Part shown: piece after piece, positions 4,613 to 59,961 of the stretch
Layout: every line of letters starts with the position of its first letter
Numbering within the stretch: position 1 is the first letter of the stretch
DNA from: Kribbella sp. NBC_00382
GTDB taxonomy: Bacteria > Actinomycetota > Actinomycetes > Propionibacteriales > Kribbellaceae
Length of the DNA: 64,000 bases
Direction of reading: 5' to 3'
Assembly: GCF_036067295.1 (NCBI RefSeq)
Contig: NZ_CP107954.1
Location: forward strand, 1,798,001-1,862,000
Notes under the pieces: generated by a model
What the model saw: the letters and a program-made list of their open reading frames with translations, nothing else
What the model was told of the DNA's origin: nothing
Databases searched by the model: none
Program-made: the position numbers and the translations under genes

Positions 4613-5230
4613 ATGACGACGATGGTTGCCACCACTGCTCCAGCCCGGGCCAAGGCCGACTGGACGAAGTACGCCGCCCTTGTGGCCAAGGTCGCGCTGT
4701 TCGCGTTGTTGCTGACAGCAATCATCTGGCCGGACCTCAGCGGCATCAAGGGCAAGGCCTCCGGCGCCCGGCTGGTCGTCTACCCGCTCGGCGCGCTGGT
4801 GCTTCCGCTGTGGTGGTTCGCGTACGGACGAACGAAAAGCAAGCTGCACCAGGCATTCCCGTGGCACGCGGACCTGCTGATCACGCTGCCGTGGCTGGTT
4901 GACCTGCTCGGCAACCGGCTCAACCTGTTCGACACCATCAACTGGTGGGACGACGCGATGCACTTCATCCTGTGGGCGTTGCTCACGGCAGGAGTCCTCA
5001 TCGCCTTCGCCCCACCCGAACTCACCCGCGGCCTGACCACCTTCGTCGCCCTCGGCTTCGGCGCCACCGCCGCGGTGATCTGGGAGCTCGGCGAGTACGT
5101 CGCCTTCGTCCGCCACTCCCCCGAACTGCAAACCGCCTACACCGACACGCTCGGGGACCTGGCCCTCGGCACCCTAGGCGCCTTCCTGGCCGGCCTGATC
5201 GTCTTCCAGGTACGCCGCTCAGCCGCGTAA
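4613..5230 (+). CDS. Integral membrane protein, DUF2238/YjdF-like
   Basis: A 205-residue protein with about five membrane helices. The first begins near residue 22 (AALVAKVALFALLLTAIIW) and the last ends LGTLGAFLAGLIVFQVRR. Charged motifs lie between helices: INWWDDAMHF, IWELGEYVAF and DTLGDLALG. The pattern of DD..H, WELGEY and DTxGDL is what I remember from the DUF2238/YjdF family, whose function is not settled. It stands alone between the FKBP terminator and the convergent siderophore importer, and is supported by GGGAGG upstream of the ATG. Confidence 0.7.
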   Translation: MTTMVATTAPARAKADWTKYAALVAKVALFALLLTAIIWPDLSGIKGKASGARLVVYPLGALVLPLWWFAYGRTKSKLHQAFPWHADLLITLPWLVDLLGNRLNLFDTINWWDDAMHFILWALLTAGVLIAFAPPELTRGLTTFVALGFGATAAVIWELGEYVAFVRHSPELQTAYTDTLGDLALGTLGAFLAGLIVFQVRRSAA

Positions 5231-5267
5231 CCCGTCGCCGAGTTGACCGAGCTACCGGCGCCGGCGC

Positions 5268-6233
5268 CTAGCGGTTGGTCGGCCGGCAGATCCCGTTGGC
5301 GGCGGCGGAAGCGGCGAGCGCCTTGGCGGCCGGGTTCTCCGCGGCCGGGTTCTCCGCGGCCGCGACCTGCTCGTTGGCTGCGGGTTGATCGTTGACCGCG
5401 AGTTGATGGCCGGCCGAGGGTTGGTCGGTGCGCGTTGTGTGGCGGCCGATCGGGACGACCATCGGGGTGCCGGCGACCGGGTCAGGGATGACCTTGACGG
5501 CCAGGCCGAAGACGTCTTGGACGACCTGTTCAGTGATCACCTCGGCCGGGTTGCCTTCAGCAACGATTGCGCCGTCCTTCATCGCGATCAGGTGGTCGCC
5601 GAACCGGCAGGCCTGGTTGAGGTCGTGCAGGACGAGCACAATGGTCCGCTGGTCGCGCTTGTTCAGGTCGACGAGCAGATCCAGTACTTCGAACTGATGC
5701 GTCAGGTCGAGGAACGTGGTCGGCTCGTCGAGCAGCAGGATGTCGGTCTCCTGGGCGAGCGCCATCGCGATCCAGACTCGTTGCCGCTGGCCACCGGACA
5801 GTTCGTCGATCGGCCGGTCGGCGATCTCGAGGACGTCCGTCGAGGTCATCGCGGCGGCGATCGCCTCGTCGTCGCCCTTGGTCCACTGGCGAATCCAGCC
5901 CTGCCGGGGGTACCGGCCGCGGCCGACCAGGTCGGCGACGGTGATCCCCTCCGGCGCGGTCGGCGACTGCGGCAGCAACCCGAGCTTCAGCGCCACGGAC
6001 CGGGTCGGGATCGACTGGATGCTCTTGCCGTCCAGCAGCACGGTGCCGCGGCTCGGCTTGAGCAGCCGGGCCAGCGTCTTCAGCAGGGTCGACTTGCCAC
6101 ACGCGTTCGCGCCGACGATCACGCTGATCTTGCCGGTCGGGATCCGTACCGAGAGGTCGTGGATGATCTCCCGGTGGTCGTAGCCGACGGCAAGGTTCTC
6201 CGCGGACAGACTGTGCTCCACGTGTGTCTCCAT
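5268..6233 (-). CDS. Iron-siderophore ABC transporter ATP-binding protein (FecE/FepC type)
   Basis: The ATPase that should power the two FecCD-type permeases encoded upstream, importing ferric siderophore. Walker A is GANACGKST near residue 40, the signature is LSGGQRQR and Walker B is ILLLDEPTTFLDL, followed by the switch His in VLVLHDLNQ. I start at ATG 6233, one base after the permease stop, because GGTGG lies 5 bases upstream; GTG 6245 is an alternative. A C-terminal tail of about 60 residues, rich in Ala, Asn and Gln with repeats (AAENPAAENPAAK), goes beyond the usual family length. It is the last gene of the operon. Confidence 0.93.
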   Translation of the reverse strand: METHVEHSLSAENLAVGYDHREIIHDLSVRIPTGKISVIVGANACGKSTLLKTLARLLKPSRGTVLLDGKSIQSIPTRSVALKLGLLPQSPTAPEGITVADLVGRGRYPRQGWIRQWTKGDDEAIAAAMTSTDVLEIADRPIDELSGGQRQRVWIAMALAQETDILLLDEPTTFLDLTHQFEVLDLLVDLNKRDQRTIVLVLHDLNQACRFGDHLIAMKDGAIVAEGNPAEVITEQVVQDVFGLAVKVIPDPVAGTPMVVPIGRHTTRTDQPSAGHQLAVNDQPAANEQVAAAENPAAENPAAKALAASAAANGICRPTNR

Positions 6234-53534: not shown

Positions 53535-53562
53535 CGACTGTCAGGTGGCGACTGTCAGGTGG
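53535..53562. repeat. 14-bp tandem duplication over the LigA stop codon
   Basis: CGACTGTCAGGTGG occurs twice head to tail (53535-53548 and 53549-53562). The TGA of the ligA-like gene lies in the right-hand copy and a duplicate in the left one. Confidence 0.85.
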
Positions 53563-53914
53563 CGATGTCGGGGTACGGCAGGCGCAGGTGCTCCATCGCC
53601 TTCCCGTAGGCCTTCTGGTACTCCAGCGGCCCGTGGTCACGCTCGAACAGCGCGATGAACAGGGTCAGCGTGAGGAACGGGTGCGCGCCGAGCCCGAACA
53701 GCGCGACATGATCGCGCTCGCGCAGCGCCCGACGCTCCTCGTCGGTGAACGCGAGCCAGGTCGACCTCTCTGTCGTGGTGCAGTTGAGCAGCTTGTTCGC
53801 CAGCTCTTGCTCCCACCAGGCGACCAGGCCGGCCGGGTCCTCGCGGTACCGCTCGACCAGCTCCGCGTCCCGATCCACCGTGTAGAGAAACTTGTCCAGC
53901 AGGTACTTGCTCAT
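53555..53914 (-). CDS. Extradiol dioxygenase small subunit (LigA-like)
   Basis: A 119-residue all-helical protein like LigA, the alpha subunit of protocatechuate 4,5-dioxygenase, which closes the active site of the LigB subunit. It starts YLLDKFLYTVDRDAELVERYREDP and has WLAFTDEERRALRERDHVALFGLGAHPFLTL split over the middle, both typical of this family. The ATG overlaps the LigB stop (ATGA), so the two are made together. The related gallate enzymes fuse both subunits; here they are separate. Confidence 0.87.
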   Translation of the reverse strand: MSKYLLDKFLYTVDRDAELVERYREDPAGLVAWWEQELANKLLNCTTTERSTWLAFTDEERRALRERDHVALFGLGAHPFLTLTLFIALFERDHGPLEYQKAYGKAMEHLRLPYPDIAT

Positions 53915-54774
53915 GCCGGCGCTCCGTTCGGGTACCAGGTGAAGTACGCCTCCATGGTGTGGAAGAGGTCGAGCGAGTCGACGTGGTCGGCCTTCGCGCC
54001 GGCTCCGGCGACGCCCATCATCAGCATGAAGTCCATGAACCCGTGCGTCGCGTTGCCCGGCAGGTGCAGGCTGTCCAGGGTCACCTCGGCCAGGCAGCCT
54101 TCGATGTCGCCACTGGCGATCCAGTCGACCGCCTTGCGGTCGAAGGCCGGATCGGGTCCGTGCTCGCCGAACTGCCGCGGGCCGCCGAGCTCCAGGGACA
54201 GGTGGCCGGTACCGATGATCGCGACCCGCTTGTCGACCGGCCACGACTCGACCAGCTTCCGGATCGTCCGGCCCAGCTCGACGAACCGTCCCGGCCGGGG
54301 CAGCGGCGGCGCGAAGATGTTGGTGTAGATCGGCACGATCGGCAGGTCGGCCTCCGGGCGCAGCGTGATGATCGGGCAGGTGATGCTGTGGTCGATCCGC
54401 AGTTCGTTGCTGAAGGCAAGGTCGAAGCCGGCGTCCAGGCCGTCGCGCAGGATGTGCGCGGACAGGCCCTCCTCGCCCGGCAACGTCATCCTGGGCAGGC
54501 CGAACTCGCGTTCCTCGTTGGCGAAGTTGGCATCGAAGTACGGCGCCTTGCCGACCAGGAACTGGGGCATGTTGTCCAGCCACAGCTGGTGGAAGTGGTC
54601 GCTGCCCACCATCACCAGGATGTCCGGCCGGGCCTTCGTGAGGGTCTCCCGGAACGCCTCGATCTTGGCGACCCACTCGTCGGCGAACGGTGGTCGGTCG
54701 GCGCCGACCGACCGGCTGGCGCGGTAGTAGAACGGGTGATGAGTGGAGGCGATGACCGCGGCGACGGTAGCCAT
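53911..54774 (-). CDS. Extradiol ring-cleavage dioxygenase catalytic subunit (LigB-like)
   Basis: A 287-residue LigB-type (class III) Fe(II) extradiol dioxygenase. The metal ligands are His12 or His13 (IASTHHPF) and His60/His62 (MVGSDHFHQ), with a Glu in the C-terminal part; the general base region IIGTGHLSLELGGPR follows near residue 190. It should open a catechol-type ring, such as a protocatechuate, gallate or methylgallate relative, at the meta position. The substrate cannot be fixed from sequence alone. It sits between a citryl-CoA-lyase-like gene and ligA. Confidence 0.88.
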   Translation of the reverse strand: MATVAAVIASTHHPFYYRASRSVGADRPPFADEWVAKIEAFRETLTKARPDILVMVGSDHFHQLWLDNMPQFLVGKAPYFDANFANEEREFGLPRMTLPGEEGLSAHILRDGLDAGFDLAFSNELRIDHSITCPIITLRPEADLPIVPIYTNIFAPPLPRPGRFVELGRTIRKLVESWPVDKRVAIIGTGHLSLELGGPRQFGEHGPDPAFDRKAVDWIASGDIEGCLAEVTLDSLHLPGNATHGFMDFMLMMGVAGAGAKADHVDSLDLFHTMEAYFTWYPNGAPA

Positions 54775-54791: not shown

Positions 54792-55580
54792 TCAGCTAGT
54801 GGGGTCGACGTAGACGGCGTTGCGGTCGATGGTCAGGTACGCGTCCATCCCGATCGGACGGCGATGCTCCTCGGCGAGCTGACCGAGCAGACCGGCCGCC
54901 CTGGCCAGCAGGGCGAACCCGCGCAGCAGCTCGATCGGGAGGCCGAGGTCGGCCAGGGCGGCACCACAGACACCGGCGCCGTTGAGTGGGAGCCGGCGAC
55001 CGAGGACCTGCTCGTGCACCCGGCCGATGGCCTCGAACAGGCGAAGATGCGGACCGCGCAGGCCCTCTTCCTCGGCGATGGCGATCAGCACCGGCGTCCT
55101 GGGATCCCGCACCTTGTGGACGGGATGGCCGAGGCCGGGTACGAACTGCTTGGCTTCCTTGGCCTGCGTCACCACGGTCAGCGCCAGCGCGTCCCAGCCC
55201 GCGTCGTCCACTGGCGGCTCGTGATCCTGCAATGCCTTGTGCAGAAAGGCTCCGCAGTCCTCGGTCACTCCCAGGAACCGCGAGCCACCACCCAGCAGGC
55301 CGGCGGCCAGCGCGCCCTGGAGCGAGTCCGGCGCCGACAAATAGGTCAGCCGGGCGGCGATCGCCGTCGGGGTGAACCCGTGATCGGCCAGGGCGACCAG
55401 GACGGCCTCGAACACCCTGGTCTCCTGCGGGGTCGGCCGCCGCATCGCGACCAGCCAGAACGCCAGCTCGCCGAACCCCACCTTGCCCATCAGGTCGGCG
55501 GTGAGGTCCTGGCCCAGCAACCGGATCTGATCCGCGGTCGAGGTTCCGAGCGAGGTGGGGAAGGCGAGGTCGTCGGTCAT
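54792..55580 (-). CDS. Citryl-CoA lyase / citrate-synthase-fold protein
   Basis: A 262-residue protein with the core of citrate synthase but far shorter than a synthase: VGFGELAFWLVAMRRPTPQETRVFEAVLVALADHG split at the start, then SAPDSLQGALAAGLLGGGSRFLG near 90 and FVPGLGHPVHKVRDPRTPVL near 145, with the active His in GHPVHK and Asp in DPR. Such short proteins are annotated as citryl-CoA lyase (CCL domain). Next to a CoA-transferase it would cleave an activated hydroxy-tricarboxylate to an acyl-CoA and an oxo acid. Its start overlaps the CoA-transferase stop by 4 bases. Confidence 0.83.
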   Translation of the reverse strand: MTDDLAFPTSLGTSTADQIRLLGQDLTADLMGKVGFGELAFWLVAMRRPTPQETRVFEAVLVALADHGFTPTAIAARLTYLSAPDSLQGALAAGLLGGGSRFLGVTEDCGAFLHKALQDHEPPVDDAGWDALALTVVTQAKEAKQFVPGLGHPVHKVRDPRTPVLIAIAEEEGLRGPHLRLFEAIGRVHEQVLGRRLPLNGAGVCGAALADLGLPIELLRGFALLARAAGLLGQLAEEHRRPIGMDAYLTIDRNAVYVDPTS

Positions 55581-56719
55581 TCGGTGGTCTCCTTGCCGGT
55601 CAGCCAGGCCCGTAGTTCGGCGCCGTGCTCGTCCAGCGACGGCGGCGGCAGCCGGTACTCCGCCTGCGTCGCGGAGAACGTGATCGGGTTGCGGACGGTC
55701 GGTGTCGAACCGACGGTGACCACCGGGTCGAGCCCGATCTCGGTGGCGAAGGCGACGCCGCCGTCGATGCTGTTGATCGGGCCGCAGGGCACTCCGGCGG
55801 CGATGATCTCGGGGAACCATTCCGCTGTGGTCCGGGTGCTCAGCCGCTCGACCAGCAGCGGACGCAGGACGGCACGGTTGGCGGTGCGTTTCTCGTTCCG
55901 GTCGAAGCGCGGGTCGTCGGCCAGGCCGGGGACACCGAGCACCTCGACGAGTTTGCGGAACTGGCCGTTGTTCCCGGCGGTGATGATCAGGTCGCCGTCC
56001 GAGCACGGCAGCGGCTCGTACGGGAACAGGCTCGGGTGGCTGTTGCCCATCCGGGTCGGGACCACTCCGCCCGCGACGTACGCGCTCGACTGGTTCACCA
56101 GCCCGGACAGCGCCGACGACAACAGGTTGACCTCGACGTGCTGTCCCAGGCCGGTCTCGTGCCGCGCGTTGAGCGCGGCCAGCACGCCGATGGTCGCGTG
56201 CATCCCGGCCATCACGTCGAAGACCGAGATGCCGGCCCGGAACGGCTCGCCGTCCGGACTGCCGGTCAGACTCATCAGCCCGGAGATCGCCTGCACGATC
56301 AGGTCGTACCCCGGCAGCGCCGCGCCCTTGGGCCCGCTCCCGAAACCGCTGATCGACGCGTAGATCAGCCCGGCATTGGCCGCCGCGAGGGTCGGGTAGT
56401 CCAGCCCGAAACGAGCGAGCCCACCCGGCCTGAAGTTCTCCACCAGGACGTCGGCGCGGTGCGCCAGCTCGCGGGCGACGGCCAGGTCGTCCGGATCCTT
56501 CAGATCAAGGGCGATCGAGCGCTTGTTGCGGTTGACCGCGAGGTAGTACGTCGAGATCCCGTCGCGCACCGGTGGTTGCCAGGACCGGGTGTCGTCGCCA
56601 CCCGGCGCCTCGACCTTGACCACCTCGGCGCCCAGGTCGGCCAGCAGCATCGTCGCGTACGGCCCGGCCAGGATCCGGGAGAAGTCGGCCACCAGCAGCC
56701 CGGACAGCGGTCCACTCAC
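55577..56719 (-). CDS. CaiB/BaiF (family III) CoA-transferase
   Basis: First gene of the five-gene operon. A 380-residue family III CoA-transferase: LLVADFSRILAGPYATMLLADLGAEVVKVE split at the start, then ENFRPGGLARFGLDYPTL and GAALPGYDLIVQAISGLM, in which Asp139 is the catalytic aspartate. RAGISVFDVMAGMHA and VEVNLLSSAL follow. The donor is usually succinyl-CoA; acceptors include carnitine, formate, mesaconate and citramalate. Here it should activate the ring-cleavage product or its hydrate for the lyase. The start is GTG 56719. Confidence 0.92.
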   Translation of the reverse strand: MSGPLSGLLVADFSRILAGPYATMLLADLGAEVVKVEAPGGDDTRSWQPPVRDGISTYYLAVNRNKRSIALDLKDPDDLAVARELAHRADVLVENFRPGGLARFGLDYPTLAAANAGLIYASISGFGSGPKGAALPGYDLIVQAISGLMSLTGSPDGEPFRAGISVFDVMAGMHATIGVLAALNARHETGLGQHVEVNLLSSALSGLVNQSSAYVAGGVVPTRMGNSHPSLFPYEPLPCSDGDLIITAGNNGQFRKLVEVLGVPGLADDPRFDRNEKRTANRAVLRPLLVERLSTRTTAEWFPEIIAAGVPCGPINSIDGGVAFATEIGLDPVVTVGSTPTVRNPITFSATQAEYRLPPPSLDEHGAELRAWLTGKETTE

Positions 56720-56745
56720 GCCAGGCTCTCCCGTCGTCGATCTAA

Positions 56746-56761
56746 GCGGACAACTGTCCGC
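56746..56761 (-). promoter_or_regulatory. Operator A downstream of the leftward promoter
   Basis: GCGGACAACTGTCCGC is a palindrome with 7-bp arms. It has the same GGAC-N4-GTCC core as operator B at 56869 and lies 27 bases upstream of the CoA-transferase GTG. Confidence 0.65.
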
Positions 56762-56798
56762 ATTGCGTCGTCGCCAGTTTCAGGCGTCGTGATCGCGA

Positions 56799-56852
56799 CT
56801 GTCAAGGGTGGCCGTGCGACCTCTTGACAGCCCTGGAGCAGGCTTCGATAGT
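56799..56852. promoter_or_regulatory. Divergent promoters with paired TTGACA elements
   Basis: CTGTCAAG (56799-56806) and CTTGACAG (56823-56830) are perfect inverted arms, giving a TTGACA -35 on each strand. Rightward, GATAGT (56847-56852) follows after 17 bases as a -10. The leftward -10 (TGAAAC) is poor. Confidence 0.6.
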
Positions 56853-56868
56853 GAGCGAAGACCGCCAT

Positions 56869-56884
56869 CCGGACAGTCGTCCGG
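56869..56884 (+). promoter_or_regulatory. Operator B downstream of the rightward promoter
   Basis: CCGGACAGTCGTCCGG has 6-bp arms and the GGAC-N4-GTCC core shared with operator A. It lies between the predicted transcription start and the amidohydrolase ATG, a position suited to repression. Confidence 0.65.
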
Positions 56885-56904
56885 TCATCTGCCTGGAGGA
56901 GCTC

Positions 56905-58377
56905 ATGTCCTTTGCACCCGGCCGGCCGATCGTCCTGCGGGGCGGCACCGTCCTGACCATGGACGACAGCCACACGGTCCTGACCGATGCCGACGTCCTG
57001 GTCGTCGACGACCGGATCGCGGCGGTCGGCGCCGCCCTGGACGTGCCCGACGGCACCGCCGAGATCGACGCGCGTGGCGGCATCGTGATGCCCGGGATGA
57101 TCGACACCCACCGGCACATGTGGCAGACCGCGATGCGTGCCTACGGCGCCGACTGGACACTGTCGCAGTACTTCGTCTGGTACTACCTCGAGCACGGCAA
57201 GACGTTCCGGCCCGAGGACATCCATGCCGGCAACCTGTTGTCGGCCTGGGAGTCGCTCGAGGCCGGCGTGACCACGACGGTCGACTGGTCCCACGGGCTG
57301 CAGACGGTCGACCACGCCGAGGCGGCGGTGGCTGCCCTGCAGGCGGTACCGGGCCGCTTTGTCCTTGCCTACGGCAACATTCAGGCCGGGCCCTGGGAGT
57401 GGACCGCGGATCCGGCGGTCCGGGCGTTCCTGGAGCGCCGGCCGACCGGGGCGAACGATCTGCTCGGCTACCAGCTCGCCTTCGACGTCACCGGCGATCC
57501 GGCCTTCCCGGAGCGGGCCGCCTTCGAGGTGGCCCGCGAGCTCGGACTGCCGGTGACGACACATGCCGGGGTCTGGGGCGCGACCAACGACAAGGGCATC
57601 CAGCTGATGTACGACAACGGGTTCATGACGCCGGACAGCATCTACGTGCACGCGGCGACGCTGACCACCGACTCGTACCAGCGGATCGCCGCCACCGGCG
57701 GGTCGGTCTCGGTGTCGACGGAGTCCGAGCAGAGCGCGGGTCAGGGCTATCCGCCCACCTGGCAGGTCCGCCGGTACGGCATCGACGTCTCGCTCTCGAT
57801 GGACACCAGTGTGTGGTGGAGCGGCGACCTGTTCTCGGCCATGCGGACGACGCTCGGCGCTGATCGCTCCCGCGAGCATCTCGAGGCGCACATGAAGGGC
57901 GAGACCGTCACCCAGGTCCATCTGCGGGCCGAGCAGGTCGTCGACTGGGCTACTCGCGGTGGCGCCAAAGCGCTCGGCCGGGACGACCTCGGCAGCCTCG
58001 AGCCAGGCAAGAAGGCCGACGTGGTGCTGATCAAGAACGACGACTCGCCGGTGTCCTTCCCGCTGCTGAACCCGTACGGCCAGGTCGCGTTCCAGGCCCA
58101 GCGCGGCGATGTCCACACCGTGCTGGTCGACGGCCGGGTGGTGAAGCACGAGCATCGACTGGTCGACGCCGACCTGCCCGCGGTACGCCGTACCGTCGAG
58201 GCGACCGTGGAACACCTCCGCTCCACCCTGGGCGAGGAGGCCTGGCTCGCGGGGATGCATCCAGAACTGCCGGATGAGGACGTCCTGGACAACCCGTACC
58301 AGTACACCGAGTACAAGTCCGACTCGAACCGGGAGGCCAGGGGCAGCATCTTCGGCGACCCTGGTTCGGAGAGCTGA
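56905..58377 (+). CDS. TRZ/ATZ-type amidohydrolase
   Basis: A 490-residue metal-dependent amidohydrolase. Metal-binding motif GMIDTHRHMW has His69 and His71; further ligands are His in VTTHAGVWG and IYVHAATLT and the Asp in LSMDTSVWWSG. The C-terminal beta-sandwich domain holds GSLEPGKKADVVLIKNDD and TVLVDGRVVK. This branch deaminates or dechlorinates N-heterocycles (triazines, guanine and 8-oxoguanine relatives). ATG 56905 has GGAGG 5 bases upstream. It is divergent from the dioxygenase operon and could feed it or act on the same nutrient. Confidence 0.9.
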   Translation: MSFAPGRPIVLRGGTVLTMDDSHTVLTDADVLVVDDRIAAVGAALDVPDGTAEIDARGGIVMPGMIDTHRHMWQTAMRAYGADWTLSQYFVWYYLEHGKTFRPEDIHAGNLLSAWESLEAGVTTTVDWSHGLQTVDHAEAAVAALQAVPGRFVLAYGNIQAGPWEWTADPAVRAFLERRPTGANDLLGYQLAFDVTGDPAFPERAAFEVARELGLPVTTHAGVWGATNDKGIQLMYDNGFMTPDSIYVHAATLTTDSYQRIAATGGSVSVSTESEQSAGQGYPPTWQVRRYGIDVSLSMDTSVWWSGDLFSAMRTTLGADRSREHLEAHMKGETVTQVHLRAEQVVDWATRGGAKALGRDDLGSLEPGKKADVVLIKNDDSPVSFPLLNPYGQVAFQAQRGDVHTVLVDGRVVKHEHRLVDADLPAVRRTVEATVEHLRSTLGEEAWLAGMHPELPDEDVLDNPYQYTEYKSDSNREARGSIFGDPGSES

Positions 58378-58462
58378 CGGTACGCCGCCGGGTGGGCACC
58401 CCTGGTTGCCGGGACACTAAGCTCGGCGGCGGCGGTCCGGCGTACGGCGAAGGAGGGAACTG

Positions 58463-59296
58463 ATGGCAGGACGAGGCGCAGGTCCCGATTTCGTGGAGTC
58501 GTTGGCCCGCGGGCTCGACGTGCTGGCCTGCTTCGACGCCGACCACCGCAGCATGTCCCTGTCCGAGGTCGCGACCGCTGCCGGACTGGCCAGGCCGACC
58601 GCGCGGCGGCTGCTGCTGACCCTGGAGGAGCTCGGCTTCGTCCGATCGACCGGTGGCGGCTTCCAACTGACGCCGAAGGTACTGACGCTCGGGATGGCGT
58701 ACGTCGGCGCGCTCGGCCTGTGGGACATCGCCCGGCCGCACCTGGAATCACTCGTGGCCCGGACCGGCGAGTCGTCCTCGATGGCGCAGCTCGACGGATC
58801 CGACATCGTCTACGTCGCCCGGGTCTCGGTCCCCAAGATCATCGCGCTACGGGTGGACATCGGCACCAGGTTCCCGGCCGCGCAGACCTCGCAGGGAAAG
58901 GTCCTGCTGGCCGGGCTCCCCGCCGACGAACTGGCCCGGACGCTGGCCCAGCCGAGCCGAGCGGGACTCCCGCCGTACATCGGCCGCTCGCCGGAGCAGC
59001 TCGACGCCGAGCTGACCGAGATCCGCGCCCGCGGCTGGGCTCTCGCCGACGAGGAGCTGGCGCCCGGCGTACGGTCCGTCGCCGCACCGGTGCGTGACGG
59101 CAGCGGGACGGTCCGGGCTGCCATGAACGTGACTGTTCACGCCGCGGAGACGTCCACCGACCAACTGCTGAAGGACTACCTGCCGCTGCTGCTGCGGACC
59201 GCCGGCGATGTCAGCGCCGAGTGGGCGCTGTGGCAGACCCGCCCGCACGTCGAGCTCGAGCCTGGTCAGCTCGCTCGCGGATCCACGCCTGCGTAG
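58463..59296 (+). CDS. IclR-family regulator of the amidohydrolase/dioxygenase block
   Basis: A 277-residue IclR regulator, close in style to the hydroxyquinol regulator at 34959: MSLSEVATAAGLARPTARRLLLTLEELGFV split over the winged helix, and IVYVARVSVPKIIALRVDIGTRFPAAQTSQGKVLLAG in the effector domain. It follows the amidohydrolase by 85 bases on the same strand and is the obvious candidate to bind operators A and B in the divergent promoter. Its 3' end overlaps the convergent membrane-protein gene by 31 bases. Confidence 0.92.
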   Translation: MAGRGAGPDFVESLARGLDVLACFDADHRSMSLSEVATAAGLARPTARRLLLTLEELGFVRSTGGGFQLTPKVLTLGMAYVGALGLWDIARPHLESLVARTGESSSMAQLDGSDIVYVARVSVPKIIALRVDIGTRFPAAQTSQGKVLLAGLPADELARTLAQPSRAGLPPYIGRSPEQLDAELTEIRARGWALADEELAPGVRSVAAPVRDGSGTVRAAMNVTVHAAETSTDQLLKDYLPLLLRTAGDVSAEWALWQTRPHVELEPGQLARGSTPA

Positions 59297-59961
59297 TCGC
59301 GCCAGACGTAGGGCGGGATGTTGTTGGTGACCAGTTGCAGCAGCTGGAGGCGGTTCATCACCTCGGCCGGCGAGTGCGGGCCGGCGTCCCAGCCGATCAG
59401 CGAGTCGCCCTCGATCCGCCAGCCGATCTCGCCATGGGAGAGCAGCAGCTCCATCATCTGCGGGTGGATCACCGCGTGCCCGAAGCGCTCGTCGTCGGCC
59501 AGCACGTGAAAGGAGCGATTGAACTGTTCGCTCTCGAAATGCAGGTCGCCGAAACCCAGCGCGTTGGCGACCGCGCCGCCGAACAGCCCTTCGCCGGTGA
59601 CCTCGAGCCGCGGCAGCGGACCCGGCAGCCGCATCACCACGACGCCGAACTTGTGGGTCGTGGTGGTCCGGCGGCCCTTCCCGTTCGACGAGTGGGTCTG
59701 GTAGCTGTAGTCGAAGGCAACGACCTGCCGGCCCTGGTACGCACCGGAGAGCGCGTTGCGGACGCGACGGTGATCGCCGGTCTGGAACGGCGTACCGGCC
59801 CACTGCCCGGCCAGTGCCGGGTTCTCCGGCAGATAGCTGAAGCCCTGTTGAGCGGCGAAGGCGGCGAACTCCTCTCGCCGCTTCTTCGCGTTCAGGTAGT
59901 TGACGTAGGCAATCCCGCAGCCGATCAACAGACTGACGACGAGCACCACCACGATCGTCAA
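59266..59961 (-). CDS. Membrane-anchored protein, DUF3137-like
   Basis: A 231-residue protein with one N-terminal membrane helix ([20 protein letters not shown]) and a soluble domain that resembles DUF3137-type proteins: FSYLPENPALAGQWAGTPF, YQGRQVVAFDYSYQT and FHVLADDERFGHAVIHPQMMELLL split across it. The function is unknown. It starts 4 bases inside pyrE, so the two are translationally coupled. Confidence 0.7.
   Translation of the reverse strand: MTIVVVLVVSLLIGCGIAYVNYLNAKKRREEFAAFAAQQGFSYLPENPALAGQWAGTPFQTGDHRRVRNALSGAYQGRQVVAFDYSYQTHSSNGKGRRTTTTHKFGVVVMRLPGPLPRLEVTGEGLFGGAVANALGFGDLHFESEQFNRSFHVLADDERFGHAVIHPQMMELLLSHGEIGWRIEGDSLIGWDAGPHSPAEVMNRLQLLQLVTNNIPPYVWRDYAGVDPRAS

Follow-up and report, generated by a model that had tools for sequence, protein, structure and literature searches.

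Regulators of the IclR family have been described as dimers or tetramers (PMC8222616), and among their described operators the closest to the sites discussed here are those of PobR and its relatives. The PobR motif, TTGTCCGATSATCGGACAR, consists of TGTCCG-N5-CGGACA boxes (PMC8222616, Table 1), and three-box sites are known for PcaU, PobR, and HmgR, which combine a group 1 with a group 2 pair of boxes (PMC8222616). In A. tumefaciens, PobR serves as activator of pobA and as repressor of its own gene (PMC12285266).

Here, we describe a locus of Kribbella sp. NBC_00382 (GCF_036067295.1, contig NZ_CP107954.1) with candidate operators built of similar boxes. The genome is a single contig of 8.49 Mb, and the window, by which we mean the whole analysed stretch of 64,000 nucleotides, covers its positions 1798001-1862000. 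In the window, a divergent gap of 185 bp lies between a CoA-transferase gene on the minus strand and an amidohydrolase-IclR pair on the plus strand (Table 1). The two palindromes beside the promoters, which are kept across many soil bacteria, very probably serve to switch a small catabolic gene cluster. A search for the name of its pathway found no literature on the cluster by title. The frame that follows the LigB-type gene in the left arm (53555-53911) is possibly a divergent LigA subunit.

Table 1. Genes, predicted promoter elements, and candidate operators of the locus, in window positions.
Feature	Position	Strand	Remarks
Small LigA-like gene (weak)	53555..53911	-	PF07746, E 0.0036, under the gathering cutoff; start picked by eye within a longer frame
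LigB-type extradiol dioxygenase gene	53911..54774	-	PF02900, E 6.9e-24
Citryl-CoA lyase-like gene	54792..55568	-	NF004868, 283.7 bits (cutoff 193); PF00285; start picked by eye within a longer frame
CoA-transferase family III gene	55577..56719	-	First in left arm; PF02515, E 8.1e-115
Candidate operator A	56746..56761	.	Two-box palindrome GCGGAC-AACT-GTCCGC; about +8 to +23 of the predicted CoA-transferase transcript
CoA-transferase probable -10, GAAACT	56776..56781	-	18-bp spacer; by eye
CTGTCAAG	56799-56806		One arm of the inverted repeat; read directly
CoA-transferase -35, TTGACA	56800..56805	-	Inside CTGTCAAG; exact in 70/76 divergent loci
CTTGACAG	56823-56830		Other arm of the inverted repeat; read directly
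Amidohydrolase -35, TTGACA	56824..56829	+	Promoter scan; exact in 72/76 divergent loci
Amidohydrolase -10, GATAGT	56847..56852	+	17-bp spacer; promoter scan
Candidate operator B	56859..56884	+	Three-box: box 3 AGACCG (56859-56864), N5 before CGGAC, palindrome CCGGAC-AGTC-GTCCGG (56869-56884); about +1 to +25 of the predicted amidohydrolase transcript
Amidohydrolase gene	56905..58377	+	First in right arm; PF01979, E 1.7e-27; NF006056, 389.3 bits, narrowly short of the cutoff of 391; start taken as the ATG behind an AGGAG-like site, preferred to the longer listed frame
IclR-family regulator gene	58463..59296	+	Second in right arm; PF09339 and PF01614 above cutoff

The divergent gap and its palindromes

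The preliminary description had read the gap as a perfect inverted repeat of two TTGACA elements (56799-56830) with a palindrome beyond each promoter, placed after the predicted transcription start, and these claims held. CTGTCAAG and CTTGACAG form a perfect inverted repeat with 8-bp arms, a pattern that 0 of 100 shuffles gave, and the palindromes of A and B are both exact, with 6-bp arms. When the first base of each -35 is counted as position 1, A starts at 46 and B at 47 in the window, which places both palindromes about ten bases past the predicted starts, the starts of both arms being predicted from consensus. The -10 of the CoA-transferase promoter is the weaker of the two and falls under the threshold of the promoter scan; a GAGACT-like consensus stands at this place across the 76 aligned divergent loci described below.

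GGACN4GTCC is not rare in itself, occurring four times in the window against 3.39 expected, three of the four within 181 bp, and CGGACN4GTCCG occurs twice against 0.58 expected, with 11 of 100 shuffles also reaching two, so that chance is not excluded by base composition and the sites are better judged by conservation. Genome-wide, there are 158 copies of GGACN4GTCC against 268 of the reversed control pattern, and six of CGGACRNNYGTCCG against one for its control. Two of these six are at this locus; among the four further sites, two are inside ORFs with high third-position GC and two have no clear setting. A third GGACN4GTCC near the gap, at 56702-56713, was considered as an operator and rejected: it lies inside the first codons of the CoA-transferase gene and is probably a coincidence of codons, since it is kept in only three of 22 relatives (L036, L038, L049).

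Conservation of the sites and of the genes beside them

An orthologue of the IclR protein at 87% identity or more is present in 23 of 38 genomes of the genus, the window genome included, and all 22 relatives that have it share the five genes and their arrangement. The preliminary description had staked its reading on both palindromes being conserved between relatives, and they are, in 22 of the 22, with the arms intact and the central four bases variable; the sites recur in other families as well. TGTCAA is kept in 22 and TTGACA in 21 of the same 22 relatives. When the 38 genomes were scanned, the exact three-box pattern was found at the divergon in all 22 cluster-bearing relatives. The window genome has no exact three-box match, its box 3 having one mismatch. 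Matches away from the cluster occur in the cluster-bearing genomes G008, G017, G021, G022, G024, G026, and G030; among the 15 genomes that lack the cluster, the pattern turns up in one, G033. In six genomes of the genus (G017, G021, G022, G024, G026, G030), the match away from the cluster is an identical stretch of 25 bp.

Outside the genus, 26 further homologues came from 391 searched genomes of the order, and all 26 regions were taken in. A scan of named genomes contributed the best 80 of 584 confirmed relatives, in Nocardioides, Blastococcus, Modestobacter, Geodermatophilus, Streptomyces, Pseudonocardia, Nonomuraea, and others. Merging identical amidohydrolase DNA reduced 129 loci, these best 80 of 584 among them, to 116, six of which have no CoA-transferase gene in the retrieved stretch. 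In a sample of the class, 34 genomes matched and 26 were taken, with the own genus and family f3 omitted; three were already in the set, leaving 23 new loci and a total of 139 distinct loci (again including the best 80 of 584). Two oddly labelled loci were kept, one from a Proteobacteria MAG (L113) and one from an unverified Bacillus (L190).

Across these loci, the conservation of the sites far exceeds chance, unlike their counts in the window or genome. Within 300 bp upstream of the amidohydrolase gene, CGGACN4GTCCG is found in 103 of 115 loci, where 29 permuted half-sites reach at most 2, and upstream of the CoA-transferase gene in 103 of 110, where they reach at most 7; both counts include the best 80 of 584 named relatives, and they are not independent, because one site in a divergent gap can count for both genes. 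The exact site is missing before the amidohydrolase gene in 12 of the 115 loci and before the CoA-transferase gene in seven of the 110. Over the same distance upstream of the IclR gene, it occurs in 18 of 114 loci, a count that is weak by itself because one permuted control reaches 11. The lyase (1/101) and LigB (0/77) genes hardly carry the site upstream, and a control reaches 10 for each.

The sites also go with particular genes. Among loci that have the IclR gene, the CoA-transferase gene, or both, 128 of 134 hold an exact CGGACN4GTCCG in the 350 bp ahead of the amidohydrolase, CoA-transferase, or IclR gene, and all 134 hold a site with at most one mismatch; L085, L086, L100, L105, L108, and L109 are the six with only a one-mismatch site anywhere tested. 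Five loci with the amidohydrolase gene only have no exact site and, in one case, a site at one mismatch or fewer. The association (128/134 vs 0/5) has a Fisher P of 1.1e-6 when relatedness is ignored. In the class sample taken separately, the site is present in 19 of 19 new loci with the CoA-transferase and/or IclR gene and in none of the four without them. The five amidohydrolase relatives without an exact operator and without a CoA-transferase or IclR gene in the retrieved stretch (L155, L242, L245, L248, L254) indicate that the amidohydrolase occurs outside this regulon too. As a separate observation, L247, with its amidohydrolase gene oriented on the plus strand, has two extra CGGACN4GTCCG sites 120 bp apart at 5139-5272, just beyond that gene, which may form a second divergent pair.

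In most rearranged clusters, the sites remain before the CoA-transferase, amidohydrolase, or IclR gene. For example, in L103, L107, L161, L165, L167, L183, and L188, the IclR gene lies between the other two, each of which has a site. Among the exceptions are L105, L108, and L109, which have no exact site, and L110, L156, L177, and L186, which have none before the amidohydrolase gene. The site in the gap between the IclR and amidohydrolase genes of rearranged clusters suggests autoregulation of the IclR gene. GGACN4GTCC is missing from the retrieved stretches with paralogous IclR genes at 46-48% identity (L050-L053), apart from a single copy in L051.

The preliminary description spoke of matched operators on the two sides, and in this respect it did not stand. 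An alignment was made of the 76 divergent loci, out of 89, that have two sites and no more, loci from the best 80 of 584 named relatives included. At B, a third box YGWCCG is found at -10 to -5 (counting the first C of CGGAC as 1), exact in 57 of the 76 and within one mismatch in 64, and the box of the window itself, AGACCG, has one mismatch. The two corresponding places at A hold an exact third box in none and one of the 76 (within one mismatch, none and six), and the mirror place downstream of B holds it exactly in none and within one mismatch in one. B thus has the form of a three-box operator like those of PcaU, PobR, and HmgR, with alternating half-sites and an outer box that is a direct repeat of one arm, and A does not. 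In six class-level loci (L235, L237, L238, L239, L240, L246), a TGTCCG or CGTCCG box stands beside the CoA-transferase site, TGTCCG for instance in L235, L237, and L240, and from these the three-box operator may have switched sides in evolution.

The conservation, the 128/134 against 0/5 loci, and the way that sites stay with the genes in rearranged clusters give good support to the IclR assignment: A and B are very probably binding sites of the neighbouring IclR-family regulator. The protein encoded at 58463 belongs to the family by both of its domains (PF09339, 61.2 bits against a cutoff of 22; PF01614, 118.4 bits against 24). Of eight models that it matched, TIGR02431 (PcaR/PcaU/PobR) was the best with 266.8 bits, the next scoring 131.9, and as this is below the cutoff of 284.75 we class the protein as related to PcaR/PcaU/PobR and not as a member. 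The proposal that this regulator binds both sites, made in the preliminary description, therefore finds support in sequence comparison, from the site-gene association, this kinship, and the PobR-like boxes.

We consider it likely that the gap is a divergent sigma-70-type promoter pair under the regulator from 58463, which would switch both arms jointly. Its dimers would read CGGACR/YGTCCG half-sites, binding the two-box A just past the predicted CoA-transferase start and the three-box B (YGWCCG-N5-CGGACR-NN-YGTCCG) just past the predicted amidohydrolase start. Bound there, the regulator would block initiation or early elongation in both arms until a metabolite of the pathway released it, and the two arms would then be switched together with the IclR gene itself, which is second in the right arm. 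What the analysis itself shows is that the sites exist, that they are conserved, that they accompany the regulator and CoA-transferase genes, and that A and B differ in build; that the IclR protein is what binds them, that it represses and does not activate, that a pathway metabolite is the inducer, and that both arms switch jointly are inferences. Repression is favoured by the position of the sites past the predicted starts, which are themselves based on consensus, and by analogy with A. tumefaciens PobR activating pobA the sign of control could differ (PMC12285266).

Spacing of the two promoters

The distance between the two -35 hexamers falls into groups of 12-16, 22-25, 30-36, 43-46, 53-58, and 64-67 bp, with none of the 76 loci in between, the gaps between groups having been set after inspection of the data. 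Among phylogenetically independent contrasts in this distance, those of 6 bp or more (n=19) cluster at multiples of ~10.75 bp, with P 1e-4 against uniform sizes and P 0.0025 against pooled contrasts of control segments. With exact-hexamer loci only, the values are P 3.5e-4 and 1.3e-3, and on the IclR tree P 1.3e-3. L045 has two TGTCAA copies, of which the one at the usual distance was taken. The control segments, from operator to start codon, show no phasing (P 0.20, 0.40). Given steps of ~11 bp in the -35/-35 distance (P 1e-4 to 2.5e-3), the divergent promoters seem to be kept in helical register. Held-out loci comprised the 13 remaining divergent loci and 13 class loci, nine of the 26 being scorable, with both -35 hexamers exact at a usable distance. 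Seven of the nine are in phase (P 0.018 ignoring kinship, several being close kin of the training set), and L229 and L139 are off; L139 offered two distances, the smaller being the one scored, and both are off phase.

This register could stem from a repression loop that joins A and B. An IclR tetramer would bridge the two operators (~9-16 turns), trapping both promoters, and spacers would change by whole turns as a result. We think this less likely than not; it would extend the best explanation and is not exclusive of the IclR-operator model. The -35/-35 contrasts in whole turns, next to control segments without the pattern, are consistent with it, as is the phasing of the A-B distance on the IclR tree (P 2e-4); tetramers are on record in the family (PMC8222616), and the period is close to the helical repeats of 11.08 and 11.60 bp per turn fitted for LacR loops in vivo (PMC1762422). 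However, the A-B distance is less clearly phased on the concatenated tree (P 0.059; 0.106 and 0.019), the segments from each operator to its own -35 are weakly phased too (A side P 0.40, 0.033; B side 0.096, 0.071; two size limits), and phasing is stronger for the -35/-35 distance than for A-B (R 0.73 vs 0.50), the reverse of what a simple loop leads one to expect. In addition, the clade of L131, L134, and L150 (138-139 bp) lies about half a turn off the main groups, two of the nine held-out loci are off phase as noted, and rearranged loci have their sites ~1-3 kb apart with the IclR gene between. A segment-shuffling compensation test gave P 4e-4 to 8e-4 ignoring relatedness and is not counted as evidence of looping. 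Among the literature matches listed, no title or beginning of an abstract named a repression loop of an IclR-family protein.

The register might instead belong to the two polymerases or their -35 contacts and not to the operators: both promoters would stay on one face of the helix so that they can be coupled to each other or served by a common upstream activator. We place this reading on the unlikely side. It would agree with the -35/-35 distance being the best-phased segment and with the very well kept hexamers (Table 1). It fits less well with logos around both -35 elements that are only weakly conserved outside the hexamers, and with A-B being phased as well on one tree.

To return to the loop, its most specific version is speculative and rather improbable: a single IclR tetramer would join the two-box and three-box operators over a small promoter-holding loop, its phase kept by whole-turn indels in many actinomycete lineages. 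If true, the loci would be a natural-variation record of loop geometry. More generally, the 76 divergent loci with spacer steps of ~11 bp are a natural series on the helical register of divergent promoters, which also bears on whether IclR-family tetramers make repression loops, and we see the register as the part most deserving of experiment.

The probable binding protein and its described relatives

The sites could in principle be bound by a regulator encoded elsewhere, with the IclR gene a mere passenger, and six loci do have a CoA-transferase gene and a site with no IclR gene within the retrieved stretch. We find this quite improbable, since rearranged loci place sites in the IclR/amidohydrolase gap or before the IclR gene and since the half-sites are identical to those of PobR (PMC8222616). 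That the palindromes work as RNA hairpins with a 4-base loop in both leaders, and not as DNA operators, is hardly credible even though both lie in predicted leaders, are able to fold, and vary in the loop bases: permuted arms are rare here, which argues against joint drift of the arms (exact-copy counts alone cannot show covariation), most near copies at places that lack the exact site deviate in a single arm, in 9 of 76 loci the predicted start would fall inside A as fits a DNA operator, the inner R and Y bases are constrained, the third box lies outside the hairpin, and 55500-59500 has no Rfam match.

With A and B taken as DNA operators of the neighbouring regulator, an uncharacterised IclR protein gains a candidate operator, a small local regulon, and a testable asymmetry of two against three boxes. 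Compared with the motifs of Suvorova and Gelfand (2021), B would combine a group 1-like pair (box 3 and the left arm) with a group 2-like pair (the palindrome), and A would be a group 2-like pair (PMC8222616), a likeness judged from the arrangement of the boxes and not from scores on the models of that study. COG1804, COG0402, COG3384, and Kribbella are absent from its main text, and the group may stand in its supplementary tables (PMC8222616).

Overlapping divergent promoters combined with DNA looping have been described on plasmid pLS20 (PMC4207663). The layout here is similar, but the genes there are Bacillus plasmid conjugation genes, and looping at the present locus is hypothetical. The nearer comparison is with PobR and PcaU of Acinetobacter, with which this locus shares the half-sites TGTCCG/CGGACA, the N5 of the PobR motif, and a third half-site (PMC8222616). 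Unlike those systems, it has a second, two-box site for the opposite arm, its sites lie downstream of the predicted starts, its regulator scores under the TIGR02431 cutoff, and the neighbouring genes are different. Judged by its sequences, the locus would thus add a well-supported case to an already known type of switch.
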